From positions 1 through 25,504 of IMG/VR virus record IMGVR_UViG_3300042691_019948: DNA of 25,504 nucleotides, one strand, 5' to 3'. The DNA comes from a virus. The position numbers and the translations under genes were made by a program. The notes under the pieces were generated by a model. That model ran no database searches, was not told the DNA's origin, and worked only from the letters and a program-made list of their open reading frames with translations. The stretch's first letter is position 1, and every line of letters starts with the position of its first letter. Shown here in pieces: positions 3,056 through 11,575 of the stretch.

Positions 3056-3067
3056 TTCGTTTGTTTT

Positions 3068-3096
3068 TGTAACAAATCTGGTGAAAATTTGTTACA
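3068..3096. promoter_or_regulatory. Inverted repeat, possible operator
   Basis: TGTAACAAAT (3068-3077), a 9-bp spacer, then the exact complement ATTTGTTACA (3087-3096). It sits between the tRNA-like genes and the tiny membrane genes. On the minus strand the arm facing those genes contains AGATTTG, one base from the TAnnTTTG promoter element. A protein binding here could block that site. A related GTAACA...TGTTAC pair occurs at 5055-5082 with nearly the same spacing. There is no T run, so it is not a terminator. Confidence 0.5.
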
Positions 3097-3102
3097 GTTC
3101 GC

Positions 3103-3182
3103 GGTTGGGTGAGGACTCGAACCTCTCAAGGCAACCCTGTTACGGGATTCGGCAACCAATGCCTCATTACGCACACCCAACC
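3103..3182 (-). tRNA. Irregular tRNA-like gene, identity uncertain
   Basis: The ends pair fully (GGTTGGGTG with CACCCAACC) and the T arm has the hallmark GGTTCGAGTCC. A possible anticodon arm is AATCC-CGTAACA-GGGTT. It would give anticodon TAA, but with G instead of T at position 33. A possible D arm is GGC-ATTGGTT-GCC. With that arrangement about 10 extra nt separate the acceptor and D stems, so the 80-nt gene is longer than a class I tRNA. It could be a decayed tRNA, a divergent one or a tRNA mimic. CCA is not encoded. Confidence 0.5.
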
Positions 3183-3186
3183 TTTG

Positions 3187-3308
3187 TAGCCAGGGCAGGA
3201 TTCGAACCTGTAATGGTTTATCAGTTCTTTATTTTTGACGGGCGTCACAGATTCCACTCTGTGTCTCCACTACTACTGATATAGCGTCTACCATTCCGCC
3301 ACCTGACT
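3187..3308 (-). tRNA. tRNA-Leu-like gene with oversized variable region
   Basis: The acceptor stem AGTCAGG/CCTGGCT forms 7 pairs with one G-T. The D arm, GGTGGCGGAATGGTAGACGC, is a textbook tRNA-Leu signature, and the T arm GGTTCGAATCC is canonical. The best anticodon arm is GCTAT-ATCAGTA-GTAGT, giving CAG (Leu, CTG codons), though it relies on two wobble pairs. Between it and the T arm lie about 57 nt instead of the usual 14 or so, including a 6-bp hairpin, CACAGA/TCTGTG. Total length is 122 nt against about 85. TATCAGT also has a perfect distant complement, ACTGATA, so an alternative fold with a roughly 50-nt insertion in the anticodon loop exists. The extra sequence could be an insertion, an intron-like element or decay. 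Confidence 0.6.
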
Positions 3309-3317
3309 AACCAAAAC

Positions 3318-6913: not shown

Positions 6914-7166
6914 CTTCTATTTTTTTTAGTTCATTAAAATGTCCACTGATCCAAAGGTACATATCATTTCCAGTCAGTTCGTATAATCTTACATTGATTA
7001 ACTTCATTAGAGACTGATCACGGGCATATTTTTTCTTTGGCTTATGAACACCCATTTTAGGGTATTCCATGTCGTCAGTGAGGAGCTTATGCCTCAGATT
7101 CCGAAGGTGTTGTAACTCGGTCAATGTCGACGGTGTAGGCGGCAAGTATATCGGGGTTCCGTTCAT
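6894..7166 (-). CDS. Small hypothetical protein, start uncertain
   Basis: A 90-aa frame of unrecognised family, mainly helical and basic in the middle (GVHKPKKKYARDQSLMKLIN), ending in KKIEDGQNRD. The longest version starts at 7166 and overlaps the DnaA-like gene by 80 nt. Its N-terminal part (TLTELQHLRNLRHKLLTDD) still looks protein-like. A start at the internal ATG at 7070 (MEYPKMG) would remove the overlap and leave a 58-aa protein. I keep the long form with reservation. Confidence 0.55.
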   Translation of the reverse strand: MNGTPIYLPPTPSTLTELQHLRNLRHKLLTDDMEYPKMGVHKPKKKYARDQSLMKLINVRLYELTGNDMYLWISGHFNELKKIEDGQNRD

Positions 7167-7572
7167 CGAAAAAATCTAATAAAAGTTCTTGTTTGGTTTG
7201 ATCTAAGTCAGCAATGAAGTGACGTATTTTTTTGCGGCGCACTGCGTTGTATGCGTAGTCTCCTTTAACTGTTTTCAGCGCGTGACATACAGTTGAGTGG
7301 TCTTTGTTTACCGTTCTTGCAACTTCCGCAAGGCTCTTAGTTGAGCAAACCTTTACGGCGGTCATGTATACCTGGCGAGCTAAAACTACATCGGCGAAAC
7401 GCTTCTGGCTTTTAATATCGGAAGCACGAACCTCAAAGTGCTTGCTTACCTTTTTCATTATTTCGTTTTCTTGAGGATCTTCTATTTTATGAAGGTACTC
7501 ATAAACTTTTGTGAATTCAGCCCGACGAGGTGACGGGACCATGTTTACTAGGTCTTTGAATGTGTATCTCAT
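7087..7572 (-). CDS. DnaA domain IV-like DNA-binding protein without ATPase
   Basis: A 161-aa protein. Residues about 35-110 match the DNA-binding domain IV of bacterial DnaA: a segment VSKHFEVRASDIKSQKRFAD, the helix VVLARQVYMTAVKV and the signature SLAEVARTVNKDHSTVCHAL, whose DHSTV-x-x-A core contacts DnaA boxes. The AAA+ ATPase domain of DnaA is absent. The short N-terminal part (NMVPSPRRAEFTKVYEYLHK) and the C-terminal 50 residues are not recognised. It lies downstream of the SSB-like gene in the replication block. It may mark the phage origin, recruit host DnaA-type machinery or act as a regulator. Confidence 0.82.
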   Translation of the reverse strand: MRYTFKDLVNMVPSPRRAEFTKVYEYLHKIEDPQENEIMKKVSKHFEVRASDIKSQKRFADVVLARQVYMTAVKVCSTKSLAEVARTVNKDHSTVCHALKTVKGDYAYNAVRRKKIRHFIADLDQTKQELLLDFFDERNPDILAAYTVDIDRVTTPSESEA

Positions 7573-7591
7573 TTGTTCGTTTGTTTAAAGC

Positions 7592-7626
7592 CGTGGCGGG
7601 TTTGCTTGCATTTATCCCCCGCCACG
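7592..7626. promoter_or_regulatory. Strong hairpin between SSB-like and DnaA-like genes
   Basis: CGTGGCGGG (7592-7600) pairs perfectly with CCCGCCACG (7618-7626) around a 17-nt loop. No T run follows in either direction, so it is not a standard terminator. It may slow RNA decay, lower read-through between the SSB-like and DnaA-like genes or be a protein-binding site. Confidence 0.6.
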
Positions 7627-7640
7627 ACCTTTGGTTAAGA

Positions 7641-8276
7641 TTAGAATGGCAATCCGTCATCATCTGGATCTTCAACTACCTGTGGGGCGGCGTATGAATC
7701 CAACTTCTTTACGGAGCTAACTGCCTTTACTTGTGGAAGGAAGATATCGTTGAGATGCTTCTCAAAGAACTCTTGGCGCTCTGTGTCATCCCACACAACT
7801 TGACCCTTCACCTTGATTTGTTTCATTTCTGGCATATTGCCTGGGTTGTCCTTAGTCCAACCCCACTTGATGTCTTCTTGCCCCTGGCGCAAGTAAAGCA
7901 TTGTACGAGTCTTTCCGTCAATCTCCTTTGACCACGGAGTCAGAGTGATCTCCTTTCCGGCATCGATGTTTGGCATTGACAAAAAGAATCCAGACGAGTA
8001 ACGTGAACTCCACGGCATTTGGATTTGGTATTCGTTGCCGCCATCCTTCAGGACAACGCACAGCTGATCGCCATAACCCTGCTCGGACACGCGCTTGAAC
8101 ACGTCTACGATGTAGCCTGAAAGAGATGCGTAACGCTCCTCAAACCAAACTTTGGTTCCGTCTTTACTGTTACACTTAATTGAGCCAGCCGTTCCTTCCG
8201 GAACACGCTTAGCAATCTTACCGCCAGCAATGCTGAGATAAGTACGGTTTGATGAACCACCTTGATTTAATCCCAT
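7641..8276 (-). CDS. Single-stranded DNA-binding protein-like
   Basis: A 211-aa protein with a beta-rich body (VWFEERYASLSGYIVDVFKR, GNEYQIQMPW, ITLTPWSKEIDG, RTMLYLRQGQ) that could form an OB fold. It ends in an acidic tail, EDPDDDGLPF, the hallmark of SSB proteins, where the last residues dock replication partners. Sequence similarity to classical SSB is weak, so the call rests on the tail, the strand pattern and its place between primase-helicase and DnaA-like genes. The ATG at 8276 was chosen because the longer frame from 8339 starts upstream of the promoter element at 8309-8316. Confidence 0.7.
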   Translation of the reverse strand: MGLNQGGSSNRTYLSIAGGKIAKRVPEGTAGSIKCNSKDGTKVWFEERYASLSGYIVDVFKRVSEQGYGDQLCVVLKDGGNEYQIQMPWSSRYSSGFFLSMPNIDAGKEITLTPWSKEIDGKTRTMLYLRQGQEDIKWGWTKDNPGNMPEMKQIKVKGQVVWDDTERQEFFEKHLNDIFLPQVKAVSSVKKLDSYAAPQVVEDPDDDGLPF

Positions 8277-8308
8277 AGATTTTTGATTAATTAATTGGTT
8301 ATATTTCG

Positions 8309-8340
8309 CAAATGTAGCATATATGTTTCTTTTGTGCAAG
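8309..8340 (-). promoter_or_regulatory. Promoter of the SSB-like gene
   Basis: Minus-strand CTTG (8337-8340), a 20-bp spacer, then TACATTTG (8309-8316). This fits the Bacteroidota promoter and the CTTG-N19/20-TAnnTTTG form seen repeatedly here. It predicts an mRNA start near 8303 and a leader of about 27 nt to the ATG at 8276. Confidence 0.7.
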
Positions 8341-8380
8341 AAAAAAACTGTTAAATTTATACCCTAGATGTCATTTTTCG

Positions 8381-10321
8381 TCATTCCCAAGCCTCCGCGT
8401 ACCCGTTCGGGTGCTGAATGTCCTCATTCCATTCCTTGGCTTCGCGAGAATCCGTCCAATTTCTGTTTGGTCTGATGGCTGACGCCTTCGGTTCTTCAAT
8501 TTGAGCCTGTACGTACTTGCCGTCAATCGCCTGTTGGAGATAGTCAACACCATCAAACGTAAACCTTCGGGTGTTCCTTTGTAGTTGGAACTCAAAGAAG
8601 CCCTTTATACCCACGATCTTTTGTCGGCGGATCTTCTTACTGTGGAACTCGCAGATCGGACTTTCTGGGGCTGTCTGAGCGAACGGGCGGTGGTATATAA
8701 GGATGTTGTCGGCCTTGTTGTTCCACATCGCACCATCAGCAAGGTCAAATACCTCTGGGCAAGGATAGTTTCCATCGTCTCCCTTACGCATTTTGTGTGG
8801 ATGGACCACGATGTCGAAGTACACGTTGTTCTTTCGGGCAAACCGTGTACAATCAGAAAGGAACGTCTCAAGGTACTTGTCGCTGCGACCCCCACCCTTT
8901 GTGTAGTCGTTGGCCATCTGATTGAACGGGTCGATGACAACTCGTTCCACACCGTGCTTGACAATGAGGGTAAGGAACACCTCCTTGACGTATTCGGGGG
9001 TAGGACTTACACTCTTGGGGTACACCATGAAGATGTGATCGCCAATCATCTTGTACACCTTCATGTACATATCGTAGGATGGACGATTCGGGTTGTTGGG
9101 TGTGCAGTCCTTTCCAAAGTAAATCTCCACCATGTCGTGGTAAAATTGCTCTGCTGGCAATTCCTCAGGGGTAAATATGGCAACCTTCTCTCCGAACTTC
9201 ACGATGCGAAACACCATCTCCCACTTCATGAATGAGGACTTGCCATAGTTTCCTATACCAGAAACAATTGTTAAATCCCCCTTTACTCGCTTGAAGTGTT
9301 TGTCAAGCGCAGGTACTCCAAGTGGTTGAGCGGCCCTGTATCCGTGCAGGTATATGTCGGACGCCTGTTCAATAACTTCCTCTGCATAAATCACATCATT
9401 CGCCGCAATATTCGCCGCATCTTCTGCGGTGATTACGATGTCAACCTCCAGTCGGTTACTCTTACTAACCAACTGATCCTTGGTAAACTCGGCTGTATTC
9501 CATTGATTCATGCTGGCCCGGTACGCGCTACGGATAGCCTGACGACATTCCATCTGACTGAAACTCGCGTCAGGGACTACGTATGTCATCATCAAACTAT
9601 AGCAGGTCTCCTCAAGCATCCCAAACCGGCAGCAGCTTGCGGCCAACTTGAACACGAAGTGGTTCCTCTCACCCTCACGGAACGCGTCACCCTTGGACGT
9701 CATCCACGTCAAGAGGTTTTGGAATATCTTGTCGTCGTCGCTAATCGTTTCTGTAGCCGTCTGCTTTGGCAACCTTCTATCTTCCTTTTTCACAGGCAAC
9801 TTTGAGTAGACCTCTGCATTGGGGTTATAGTACAACTCCGGATCATATGACTCAAAGCACAAACGGGAAACATTACGTCCTGTCTTGTCGATGTCGGGCA
9901 TTTCCGCCATTAGTGCGTCAAAATGCTCTTTATGTTTGGTTTTCCACTCAATTTGCACCAAAGCCTTTACACCATTTCCCGAAGGTGATACCCAAACAGC
10001 CGTAATGTACCTTATAAGTGACAATTCGTTTCTCTTTTGGGTGATATTTGGGACATTATCGAAATCAAGCACAATATATCCTGAGTGTTCGACAAGTTCA
10101 GAATCCTTGCGTTTGTTAAAAAGCCCACTGAAGCAAACTGCTGGAAGTTTCTTTTTTAAATCATCCGCCTCTTTCTTGGTCTTGGCTTCCCTCGCCCTCT
10201 GTACAAGGTCCTTTGACTTTCCAGTCCGAATTCGTTCAAGTGCGCCCAGCACAGTAATTTGGTGTCCTTGCAGGTCGTTGAAGTCTTTGTAGATTGAAAT
10301 CTTACCATGTGTTGTTGTCAT
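8381..10321 (-). CDS. Primase-helicase with VirE/BT4734-like N-terminal domain
   Basis: A 646-aa two-part replication enzyme. Residues about 1-180 match the VirE N-terminal/BT4734 type, related to archaeo-eukaryotic primases. The acidic motif VLDFDNV (84-90) would bind metal, and SPSGNGVK is at 112-119. Residues about 200-270 are helical and resemble a primase C-terminal linker. Residues about 330-590 form a RecA-like DnaB-family helicase core. Walker A is GIGNYGKSS (355-363), with TPEELPAEQF just after, Walker B is VVIDPF (461-466), and a His motif VVHPHK is at 505-510. The C-terminal 60 residues are polar. It probably primes and unwinds phage DNA. The start overlaps the HTH replication gene by 20 nt, suggesting coupled translation. 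No polymerase gene is visible in the window. Confidence 0.88.
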   Translation of the reverse strand: MTTTHGKISIYKDFNDLQGHQITVLGALERIRTGKSKDLVQRAREAKTKKEADDLKKKLPAVCFSGLFNKRKDSELVEHSGYIVLDFDNVPNITQKRNELSLIRYITAVWVSPSGNGVKALVQIEWKTKHKEHFDALMAEMPDIDKTGRNVSRLCFESYDPELYYNPNAEVYSKLPVKKEDRRLPKQTATETISDDDKIFQNLLTWMTSKGDAFREGERNHFVFKLAASCCRFGMLEETCYSLMMTYVVPDASFSQMECRQAIRSAYRASMNQWNTAEFTKDQLVSKSNRLEVDIVITAEDAANIAANDVIYAEEVIEQASDIYLHGYRAAQPLGVPALDKHFKRVKGDLTIVSGIGNYGKSSFMKWEMVFRIVKFGEKVAIFTPEELPAEQFYHDMVEIYFGKDCTPNNPNRPSYDMYMKVYKMIGDHIFMVYPKSVSPTPEYVKEVFLTLIVKHGVERVVIDPFNQMANDYTKGGGRSDKYLETFLSDCTRFARKNNVYFDIVVHPHKMRKGDDGNYPCPEVFDLADGAMWNNKADNILIYHRPFAQTAPESPICEFHSKKIRRQKIVGIKGFFEFQLQRNTRRFTFDGVDYLQQAIDGKYVQAQIEEPKASAIRPNRNWTDSREAKEWNEDIQHPNGYAEAWE

Positions 10322-10943
10322 CTTGAATAGGTGTTTGTTTTATTGTTTTTGTTTGTGTTTCGTCTTCCCATCTTCTATCGCGAAGATATCTTACCGGGTC
10401 CTTCCAATACTTGGCTTCGCGACCCGATTTATGGTTACCCATGCCTTCAACTGCTAATATGCGATCCTCAGCAGAGAGTTTGTTCCATACAGTTAAGGTC
10501 TGCTTCTTGTCCACCTTCTTGTTGTATGCTTGCCAAAAATCCTCAAAAGAGTATTTATATGTTATTTCTTTTTTTGTATTATCTATATATGTAGTGGCGG
10601 GTTTTCGGATATCGGGTTTTCCGCTTTCCGTTAAACCGCTCTCGGTTGACTCGTAGTAGACGATGTAGTTAAACCCTCTTGACAAACCATCGTTACCAAT
10701 TATTCGCACCGAATGTATGTACCCTAAAAGTTCCAATTCATCCCATGCGCTAGAGATTGAATCCTTACCGTCCAACGAGTAGTCGGTTAATTTGCTTTTG
10801 TAAATAACCCAATCATGCGGGAGGGATAGTAGAAATGACAATAGCCCCTTTGCTTTTAGGCTTATTGACTTGTCCCTTAAAAATTCAGTAGGAACCATTG
10901 CAAAAGGCACGTTCCTCGTTTTAACAATTTGTCCTGTGTTCAT
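10302..10943 (-). CDS. Helix-turn-helix replication protein
   Basis: A 213-aa protein. Residues 10-95 are a winged-helix domain of the kind found in phage replication initiators: VPTEFLRDKSISLKAKGLLS, then LLSLPHDW, a tyrosine-rich turn, and DSISSAWDELELLGYI as recognition region. Residues 95-125 are a polar linker. The C-terminal part (FEDFWQAYNKKVDKKQTLTV, ending with KYWKDPVRYLRDRRW) matches the common 'FE.FW..Y..K..K..A...W' module of phage replication and helicase-loading proteins. It is likely to bind the origin and load the helicase encoded next to it. The ATG at 10943 comes 6 nt after the T run of a terminator hairpin, so its expression is probably controlled by that leader RNA. Confidence 0.8.
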   Translation of the reverse strand: MNTGQIVKTRNVPFAMVPTEFLRDKSISLKAKGLLSFLLSLPHDWVIYKSKLTDYSLDGKDSISSAWDELELLGYIHSVRIIGNDGLSRGFNYIVYYESTESGLTESGKPDIRKPATTYIDNTKKEITYKYSFEDFWQAYNKKVDKKQTLTVWNKLSAEDRILAVEGMGNHKSGREAKYWKDPVRYLRDRRWEDETQTKTIKQTPIQDDNNTW

Positions 10944-10948
10944 AAAAT

Positions 10949-10979
10949 AAAAAAAGCCCGCAAGAGCAACTTCGCGGGC
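10949..10979 (-). terminator. Intrinsic terminator immediately before the HTH replication gene
   Basis: Minus strand: GCCCGC, a 12-nt loop, GCGGGC, then seven T (plus-strand A at 10949-10955). It lies downstream of the promoter at 11065-11096 and before the ATG at 10943, which fits regulated termination rather than simple end-of-gene termination. Confidence 0.75.
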
Positions 10980-11060
10980 CTAATTTGGTAAACAAGTACT
11001 TTACCTAGGCATCCGAAGCCTAGTTTGCTGTTGCTCTATAACAAACTACGCTTGGAATAT
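10949..11060 (-). ncRNA. Structured leader RNA with pseudoknot potential ahead of the replication operon
   Basis: Transcribed leftward from the promoter at 11065-11096. Elements in transcript order: AGAGCAAC (11030-11037), then a hairpin CTAGGC-TTCGGAT-GCCTAG (11005-11023), directly abutting GGTAAA-GTACTTG-TTTACC (10987-11005), then the terminator hairpin GCCCGC...GCGGGC with seven T. The terminator loop contains GTTGCTCT (10963-10970), an exact 8-base complement of the first element. The RNA can therefore fold as a pseudoknot or as a closed multi-arm structure competing with the terminator. The next gene starts 6 nt after the T run. It may be an attenuator or riboswitch-like leader, or a small RNA. 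I recognise no known class. Confidence 0.62.
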
Positions 11061-11064
11061 TTGG

Positions 11065-11096
11065 CAAACATAAACTAACCACGCGAGGTTGTCAAG
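11065..11096 (-). promoter_or_regulatory. Promoter of the replication operon leader
   Basis: Minus-strand CTTG (11093-11096), 20-bp spacer, TATGTTTG (11065-11072). The expected mRNA start is near 11060, giving a leader of about 115 nt before the HTH replication gene. The -33 element lies in the last codons of the zinc-ribbon gene. Confidence 0.68.
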
Positions 11097-11324: not shown

Positions 11325-11355
11325 CTTGACACTGTGTTGTTTTTCTGTATATTTG
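11325..11355 (+). promoter_or_regulatory. Rightward promoter of the structural operon
   Basis: CTTG (11325-11328), 19-bp spacer, TATATTTG (11348-11355), then CAGC and ATG. The layout mirrors the leftward promoter 6 bp away. It would drive the GroES-like and packaging genes, starting with a nearly leaderless first gene. Confidence 0.7.
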
Positions 11356-11359
11356 CAGC

Positions 11360-11575
11360 ATGAGTAATTTATTTCCACCCGACCACCGGGTATTTATTGA
11401 AATAGAAAACAAGACCGACAAGCAGATTGACGCTGTTATAACTAAGGTTGGTAATTTTTGCCCATTCGAAGTGGGGCAGCGCATTTGTATTGTTGGAAAG
11501 GTTGATAAAGTTGAACTTCAAGATGTTACAGAGTATTCTGTGCATGAGAGATACATTGTGATGGTATATGAATAA
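11360..11575 (+). CDS. Short GroES-like (Cpn10-type) protein
   Basis: A 71-aa protein. The start LFPPDHRVFIEIEN resembles the 'P-x-x-D-R-V-x-V' first strand of co-chaperonin GroES. The middle EVGQRICIVG corresponds to the 'V-x-x-G-D-x-V' strand, and the end TEYSVHERYIVMVYE to the family's closing 'EY-x-I-x-x-E-x-D-I-x-A-V'. The mobile loop that contacts GroEL seems absent or very short, and the protein is shorter than the usual 95 residues or so. It might be a capsid-folding co-chaperone fragment, a partner of the larger GroES-like protein downstream, or an unrelated small barrel. The ATG lies 4 nt after the -7 element. The gene overlaps the next by 8 nt. Confidence 0.45.
   Translation: MSNLFPPDHRVFIEIENKTDKQIDAVITKVGNFCPFEVGQRICIVGKVDKVELQDVTEYSVHERYIVMVYE

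Follow-up and report, generated by a model that had tools for sequence, protein, structure and literature searches.

In the P4 CI RNA/seqA-seqC system, an untranslated leader with internal complementary segments brings about premature termination before the replication genes through RNA-RNA pairing (PMC4825925). There, cleavage of the leader yields a separate RNA, which pairs with sites located up- and downstream (seqA and seqC); the c4 RNA of P1/P7 is grouped with P4 CI RNA as a near system. In the pT181 attenuator, a terminator is found between the promoter and the replication initiator gene (PMC4878617). A counter-transcript made from the opposite strand binds the leader in pT181 and pIP501, and an anti-terminator sequesters an arm of the terminator. 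Loop-loop pairing beside an intrinsic terminator is found in the purine, ZTP and guanidine-II riboswitches. The put RNA of HK022 and the EAR element are hairpin RNAs located just downstream of an operon promoter that affect termination, and they need conserved sequence for contact with RNA polymerase; to our knowledge, these elements do not include a terminator of their own immediately ahead of the first gene.

We analyzed a stretch of viral DNA of 25,504 nucleotides (IMG/VR record IMGVR_UViG_3300042691_019948, positions 1 to 25,504; hereafter the window), in which a leader with two complementary hairpin loops precedes the replication operon. Like the P4 leader, it heads a replication operon, contains internal complementary segments and has a terminator before the replication genes. 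Unlike in P4, both partners are hairpin loops, one of them the loop of the terminator, and only one complementary pair is seen; the Rfam family of c4 (RF01695) does not match the leader. With pT181 and pIP501 it shares a terminator ahead of the replication gene, loop-loop kissing and, putatively, specificity by loop alleles, but the complement of the first loop lies in the same RNA and the kissing element is in the loop of the terminator and not in its arm. In contrast to the riboswitches with kissing or pseudoknot pairing, leaders of this kind have no conserved ligand core, and their sequences are unrelated between families. The position of the hairpins right after the operon promoter is as in put and EAR. 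We class the leader with leader attenuation, as a variant that belongs to neither the P4 nor the pT181 system.

Layout of the leader and of the replication block

At positions 11095-10943 on the minus strand, a promoter-like site is followed by hairpins P1, P2 and P3, the last resembling an intrinsic terminator, and then by the ATG of the replication initiator gene. The features are as follows.

11065..11095, minus strand: promoter-like site TTGACA-17-TATGTTTG (consensus scan, 10/12 matches), with TTGACA at 11095-11090 and TATGTTTG at 11072-11065, the latter of the Bacteroidota TAnnTTTG -7 box type
11012..11057, minus strand: hairpin P1, arms 11057-11040 and 11029-11012, loop 11039-11030 (folding, alignment A1)
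11030..11037, minus strand: 5' kissing element of the P1 loop, AGAGCAAC, exact complement of 10970-10963
10987..11005, minus strand: hairpin P2, GGTAAA/TTTACC, arms 11005-11000 and 10992-10987 (folding, covariation)
10956..10979, minus strand: terminator hairpin P3, GCCCGC-GAAGTTGCTCTT-GCGGGC, arms 10979-10974 and 10961-10956 (folding, alignment A1)
10963..10970, minus strand: 3' kissing element GTTGCTCT in the P3 (terminator) loop, complement of AGAGCAAC
10949..10955, minus strand: T7 run of the terminator (sequence; T-rich in all family A relatives)
10302..10943, minus strand: replication initiator with HTH, the gene that follows the leader (phrog_270 replication initiation protein, 1.7e-18; HTH_36)
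8381-10321, minus strand: primase/helicase of the replication block
about 7641-8300, minus strand: protein of unknown function with a phrog_19605 match, replication block
7087-7572, minus strand: protein with a DnaA C-terminal domain, replication block (the gene block after the initiator is 7087..10321)

Promoter and terminator of the window were assigned by consensus matching, and transcription probably starts at about 11060, a few bases ahead of P1. The minimum free energy fold of the leader contains P1, P2 and P3, and its energy of -41.2 kcal/mol compares with -27.3 kcal/mol for dinucleotide shuffles (z -4.0; lower than 200/200 shuffles). P3 is a GC-rich hairpin followed by a T-run, as in intrinsic terminators, a layout that is kept in relatives; five bases separate the T7 run from the initiator ATG at 10943. 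The exact complementarity of eight bases between the P1 loop and the P3 loop, which the preliminary description had reported, is indeed present in the sequence, and the terminator that it had placed directly ahead of the replication operon was recovered by folding and by conservation in relatives. That description took AGAGCAAC for a free 5' element and missed the long hairpin, P1, in whose loop the element sits. It had also drawn two abutting hairpins, one of which, GGTAAA/TTTACC, is real (P2), whereas CTAGGC/GCCTAG is not conserved. The latter (11023-11018/11010-11005) was rejected: it shares positions with the 3' arm of P1, and GCCTCG disrupts it in two close relatives, L006 and L013. The predicted fold is a kissing complex between two hairpin loops.

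Portal and primase have their relatives in Flavobacterium, Cellulophaga, Tenacibaculum and Maribacter phages, and the host is therefore very likely a member of the Bacteroidota. A search of 38 related records, which may be partial although several reach 60-70 kb, gave no tyrosine integrase, so that the virus is not obviously lysogenic. Elsewhere in the window, the plus strand has a strong divergent promoter-like site at 11326-11353 (TTGACA-16-TATATTTG), a few bases ahead of the start codon of the first plus-strand gene (ATG at 11360); the early and structural blocks thus appear to diverge at this point. Four successive small proteins of unknown function, very rich in lysine and with similar repeats, are encoded on the plus strand at 480-2146. 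On the minus strand at 3062-3310, two elements (GGTTCGAATCC, GGTTCGAGTCC) resemble tRNAs in having good acceptor and T arms but are called by neither ARAGORN nor Rfam; a long insert seems to interrupt the anticodon arm of the first.

Covariation of the two loops and exchange of leader alleles

A search with the initiator brought in 79 loci, and the leaders of 43 of them are homologous with that of the window; together these constitute family A. In an alignment of 30 rows from this family (A1), 91.5% of the helix cells are paired, and pairing falls to 38-49% when partners are shifted by 1-3 columns. P1 (helix 1) is paired in 90.9% of cells and has 8 pairs with changes on both sides, the kissing helix in 97.1% with 3 such pairs, and P3 (helix 4) in 97.5%. 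P2 is variable and is missing from some families; in the matches of the pattern scans described below, it (helix 3) is paired in 81.9% of cells, with 4 pairs changed on both sides. The loops of relatives covary as alleles, among them GAGCAAC/GTTGCTC, GAACCAC/GTGGTTC and GAGTCAC/GTGACTC. Cell counts in A1 overstate the number of independent events, the kissing allele changing only twice on the family A leader tree. We also ran two pattern scans that made no use of the initiator; they returned 100 loci, with 57 model matches among them. In 57/57 of these matches, all seven core kissing positions are complementary; as the patterns fixed the 3' element, the result is that the 5' element follows the 3' element. 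For this set 4-7 allele changes are counted, the number varying with the columns from which the tree is built, and in the near-minimal pairs L249/L286 and L231/L306 the P1 loop and the P3 hairpin change jointly while most else is constant. The long-range pairing proposed from the window alone is therefore conserved and covarying in relatives, far beyond chance, which clearly favours the preliminary description on this point.

The stems of P1 and P3 contain 79 G-U cells and 1 A-C cell, so that selection acts on the minus-strand RNA, which is the functional molecule. The kissing helix is strictly Watson-Crick (233/240 cells, no G-U). One family A copy was found per record tested, excluding weak opposite-strand matches at the same place; opposite-strand model matches were rejected because they overlap P1 and are symmetric shadows of it. 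Leader-peptide attenuation was likewise discarded: no conserved small ORF was seen by eye in the leaders, and ATGCCTAGGTAA of the window is missing from most relatives.

The initiator of L002 is 98% identical to that of the window, but its leader is another allele, and conversely L015, L021 and L051 have the leader type of the window with another initiator subtype. Within family A, 11 allele changes are required on the initiator tree compared to 2 on the leader tree. Pairwise comparisons show low identity in the leader and conserved sequence on either side of it; for L024/L042, identity is 64-68% in the leader, 84-98% over the 450 nt upstream and mostly 82-100% downstream. Near-identical leaders precede initiators of the MNTGQI and MHNQYSI types, and a third type, MLMISCD, follows one of the family A leaders, so that family A is associated with at least three types; MHNQYSI and MLMISCD match replication-initiation PHROGs, the latter weakly. 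These swaps of leader alleles and the different initiator types behind family A leaders make the leader a module of its own, which moves independently and is tied to the starts of replication operons and not to one initiator sequence. Drift and recombination in the conserved flanks could account for the diversity of alleles. The cassette-like exchange suggests, and does not prove, that leaders are targeted in trans by released RNA of their own allele.

The same plan in leaders of unrelated sequence

The leaders of more distant initiators have unrelated sequences, yet they are built from the same elements: a box of the TAnnTTTG type, 95-131 nt ahead of the ATG, a hairpin on the 5' side, and a terminator with a loop complementary to that of the first hairpin. 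Their loop pairs include GTAGAGG/CCTCTAC, GTCGAGG/CCTCGAC, GTCGCAG/CTGCGAC, GTAGCAG/CTGCTAC, GTGGAGT/ACTCCAC, GTACGAG/CTCGTAC, GAGTCAG/CTGACTC and others. In family B, fixed anchors at 19 loci delimit three alleles (GGAAAC/G+TTTCC, TGGAAC/G+TTCCA and GGGAAC/G+TTCCC). Because a free search of any hairpin loop against the last 75 nt was too permissive for significance leader by leader, we used a promoter-anchored test on 24 leader clusters, in which each P1 loop was paired with its own terminator region or with a swapped one and the length of the longest match was recorded. A match of at least 6 nt was found in 15/24 own pairs versus 20/552 swapped pairs, and a match of at least 7 nt in 11/24 versus 3/552. 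A descriptor made of the box, a hairpin and a kissing match of 6 nt or longer within a T-run hairpin (score >=10) gave 31 matches in 478 kb of both-strand viral DNA, 31/31 being located ahead of an initiator gene or its operon; no match was obtained in shuffled sequence. Taken singly, a leader with an 8-nt match could be an ordinary terminator with chance complementarity in its loop, as GTTGCTCT is expected about 0.8 times in the window, in which no further copy of the 8-mer is present; such an origin is contradicted by the loops that change in concert and by the controls with swapped pairs and with the descriptor, and we consider its probability negligible.

The location of the descriptor matches also bears on the nature of the RNA. 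It could be an autonomous small RNA of about 110 nt acting in trans on another RNA or a host protein, with the terminator as its 3' end, the kissing helix stabilising its fold and the initiator expressed from leak-through. Its own promoter-like box and terminator, the single copy per record and the compact fold would agree with this. However, a small RNA could sit anywhere, whereas all descriptor matches precede the initiator gene or its operon, different initiator types included, and the complete difference of sequence between families leaves no common target or binding site; we regard this possibility as unlikely. The constant location at the replication block would also suit a part in phage DNA replication itself, as a primer or origin RNA in the manner of ColE1 RNAII, but the terminator ends the RNA at the T-run, which is unfavourable for a stable RNA-DNA hybrid and makes such a role very improbable.

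Rfam searches at permissive and gathering thresholds returned only sub-threshold terminator-like matches (the best, Arrc14, with 34 bits where 99 are needed), which agrees with the earlier statement that the leader belongs to no named class. No match of the leader was obtained by blastn against named phages, and literature searches retrieved no description of such a leader. A ligand-binding riboswitch or a protein-binding leader would account for the leader position, the terminator and the pseudoknot-like pairing, but is highly improbable given that no core is conserved across families, that P1, linker and loops vary, and that Rfam gives no match. Antitermination of the put or EAR type, in which the folded leader makes RNA polymerase ignore its own and later terminators, would be in keeping with hairpins near the 5' end right after the operon promoter. 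Only architecture and complementarity are kept here, and no Rfam family matches, EAR (epsC) included, so that we hold this mode to be very unlikely. Recognition between RNAs fits better than a ligand or protein site, because the families share complementarity only and no sequence.

The plan precedes the replication operons of many uncultured phages, and descriptor-positive leaders also occur in cultured ones, namely Flavobacterium phages elemoF, FL-1, FCL-2 and 11b, Tenacibaculum phage JQ, in which the loop-loop match reaches 10 nt, and Polaribacter phage P12002S. Leaders recognized by eye in the descriptor-negative Cellulophaga phages phi10:1 (GTACGAC/GTCGTAC) and Nekkels_1 (ATTGGAA/TTCCAAT) add to these. 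The next gene is the replication initiator in FCL-2 (phrog_428, 5e-32) and P12002S (1e-37); a small gene lies between leader and initiator in elemoF and JQ, phi10:1 and Nekkels_1 have a gene ahead of the primase with only a weak primosomal match, and the gene after the leader in FL-1 and 11b is of unknown function. The kissing leader of FL-1 (L215 2256-2358) is clear and the gene that follows matches no PHROG; FL-1 is either an exception to the initiator rule or carries an undetected replication gene.

At L090, L104 and L145 the RNA lies further upstream, with other sequence between it and the initiator. By eye, this interval contains a GIY-YIG-like (homing endonuclease) ORF in L090 (2576-3000) and L104 (441-860), as if inserted at the start of the operon. 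The leader is absent at some related initiators (L065, L067, L076, L043 and L088-L093). The initiators of L065, L067 and L076 are close to family B (L045); a different gene lies directly upstream of them, and the fetched flank contains no leader RNA. No such leader was found ahead of initiator genes in the gut Bacteroidales phages examined, and a genome scan returned only Anaerococcus HTH genes, without the leader.

A putative RNA-only attenuator

The reading that we favour, with somewhat better than even confidence, is that the leader is a cis-acting attenuator made of RNA only, which heads the replication operon and whose loop-loop kissing tunes the terminator. RNA polymerase would start a few bases ahead of P1, and the nascent RNA would form P1 and then P3, the loop of which would pair with that of P1, as the covariation supports. 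The T-run is where most transcripts are expected to end, giving an RNA about 110 nt long. A transcript that begins upstream has to pass the terminator before it gets to the initiator ATG, and since no promoter fits in the five bases between the T-run and the ATG, the initiator can be expressed only through read-through of the terminator.

The kissing helix may set the frequency of this read-through. The preliminary description had envisaged a simple switch between pairing and termination, which is not what the anatomy shows, because kissing is compatible with an intact terminator stem. As no arm of the terminator is sequestered by the kissing helix, the effect of kissing on termination is not obvious; no common anti-terminator was found in the prefix folds of 11 leaders. 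In prefix folds of several leaders, the kissing elements pair once the second has emerged and before the 3' arm of the terminator, so that an early capture delaying the terminator is possible. Our guess is that P1 captures the emerging P3 loop early, which would delay the terminator and favour read-through. The released RNA would carry both loops and might compete for the loops of new transcripts of the same allele, resulting in a self-limiting and allele-specific control. No antisense promoter is evident by eye; a plus-strand site matching the promoter consensus (10921-10948, 10/12) lies just outside the leader and points into it, and shuffles give nearly as many such sites; an antisense transcript is thus conceivable.

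A more tentative proposal, which we think doubtful though conceivable, extends this attenuator to an RNA-only incompatibility during superinfection. The short RNA made by each phage would recognise nascent replication leaders by their matching loop allele and shut them down, and loop alleles under frequency-dependent selection would be traded as cassettes between phages, even between different initiator genes.

The leader would represent a class of regulatory RNA that is undescribed and yet widespread among phages of the Bacteroidota, a phylum in which phage gene regulation is little known. Its definition by architecture and complementarity would explain why searches based on RNA family sequences miss it. 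It would offer an RNA-only control of the timing at which phage DNA replication starts, with allele-specific exclusion of competitors as a possible consequence. The cultured carriers (Flavobacterium elemo phages, phi10:1, Nekkels_1, JQ and P12002S) make the idea directly testable, and the natural loop alleles could double as orthogonal RNA attenuators. In many viruses of Flavobacterium-type bacteria, the exact complementarity of the two loops ahead of the replication genes points to a previously undescribed brake on replication that consists of RNA only.
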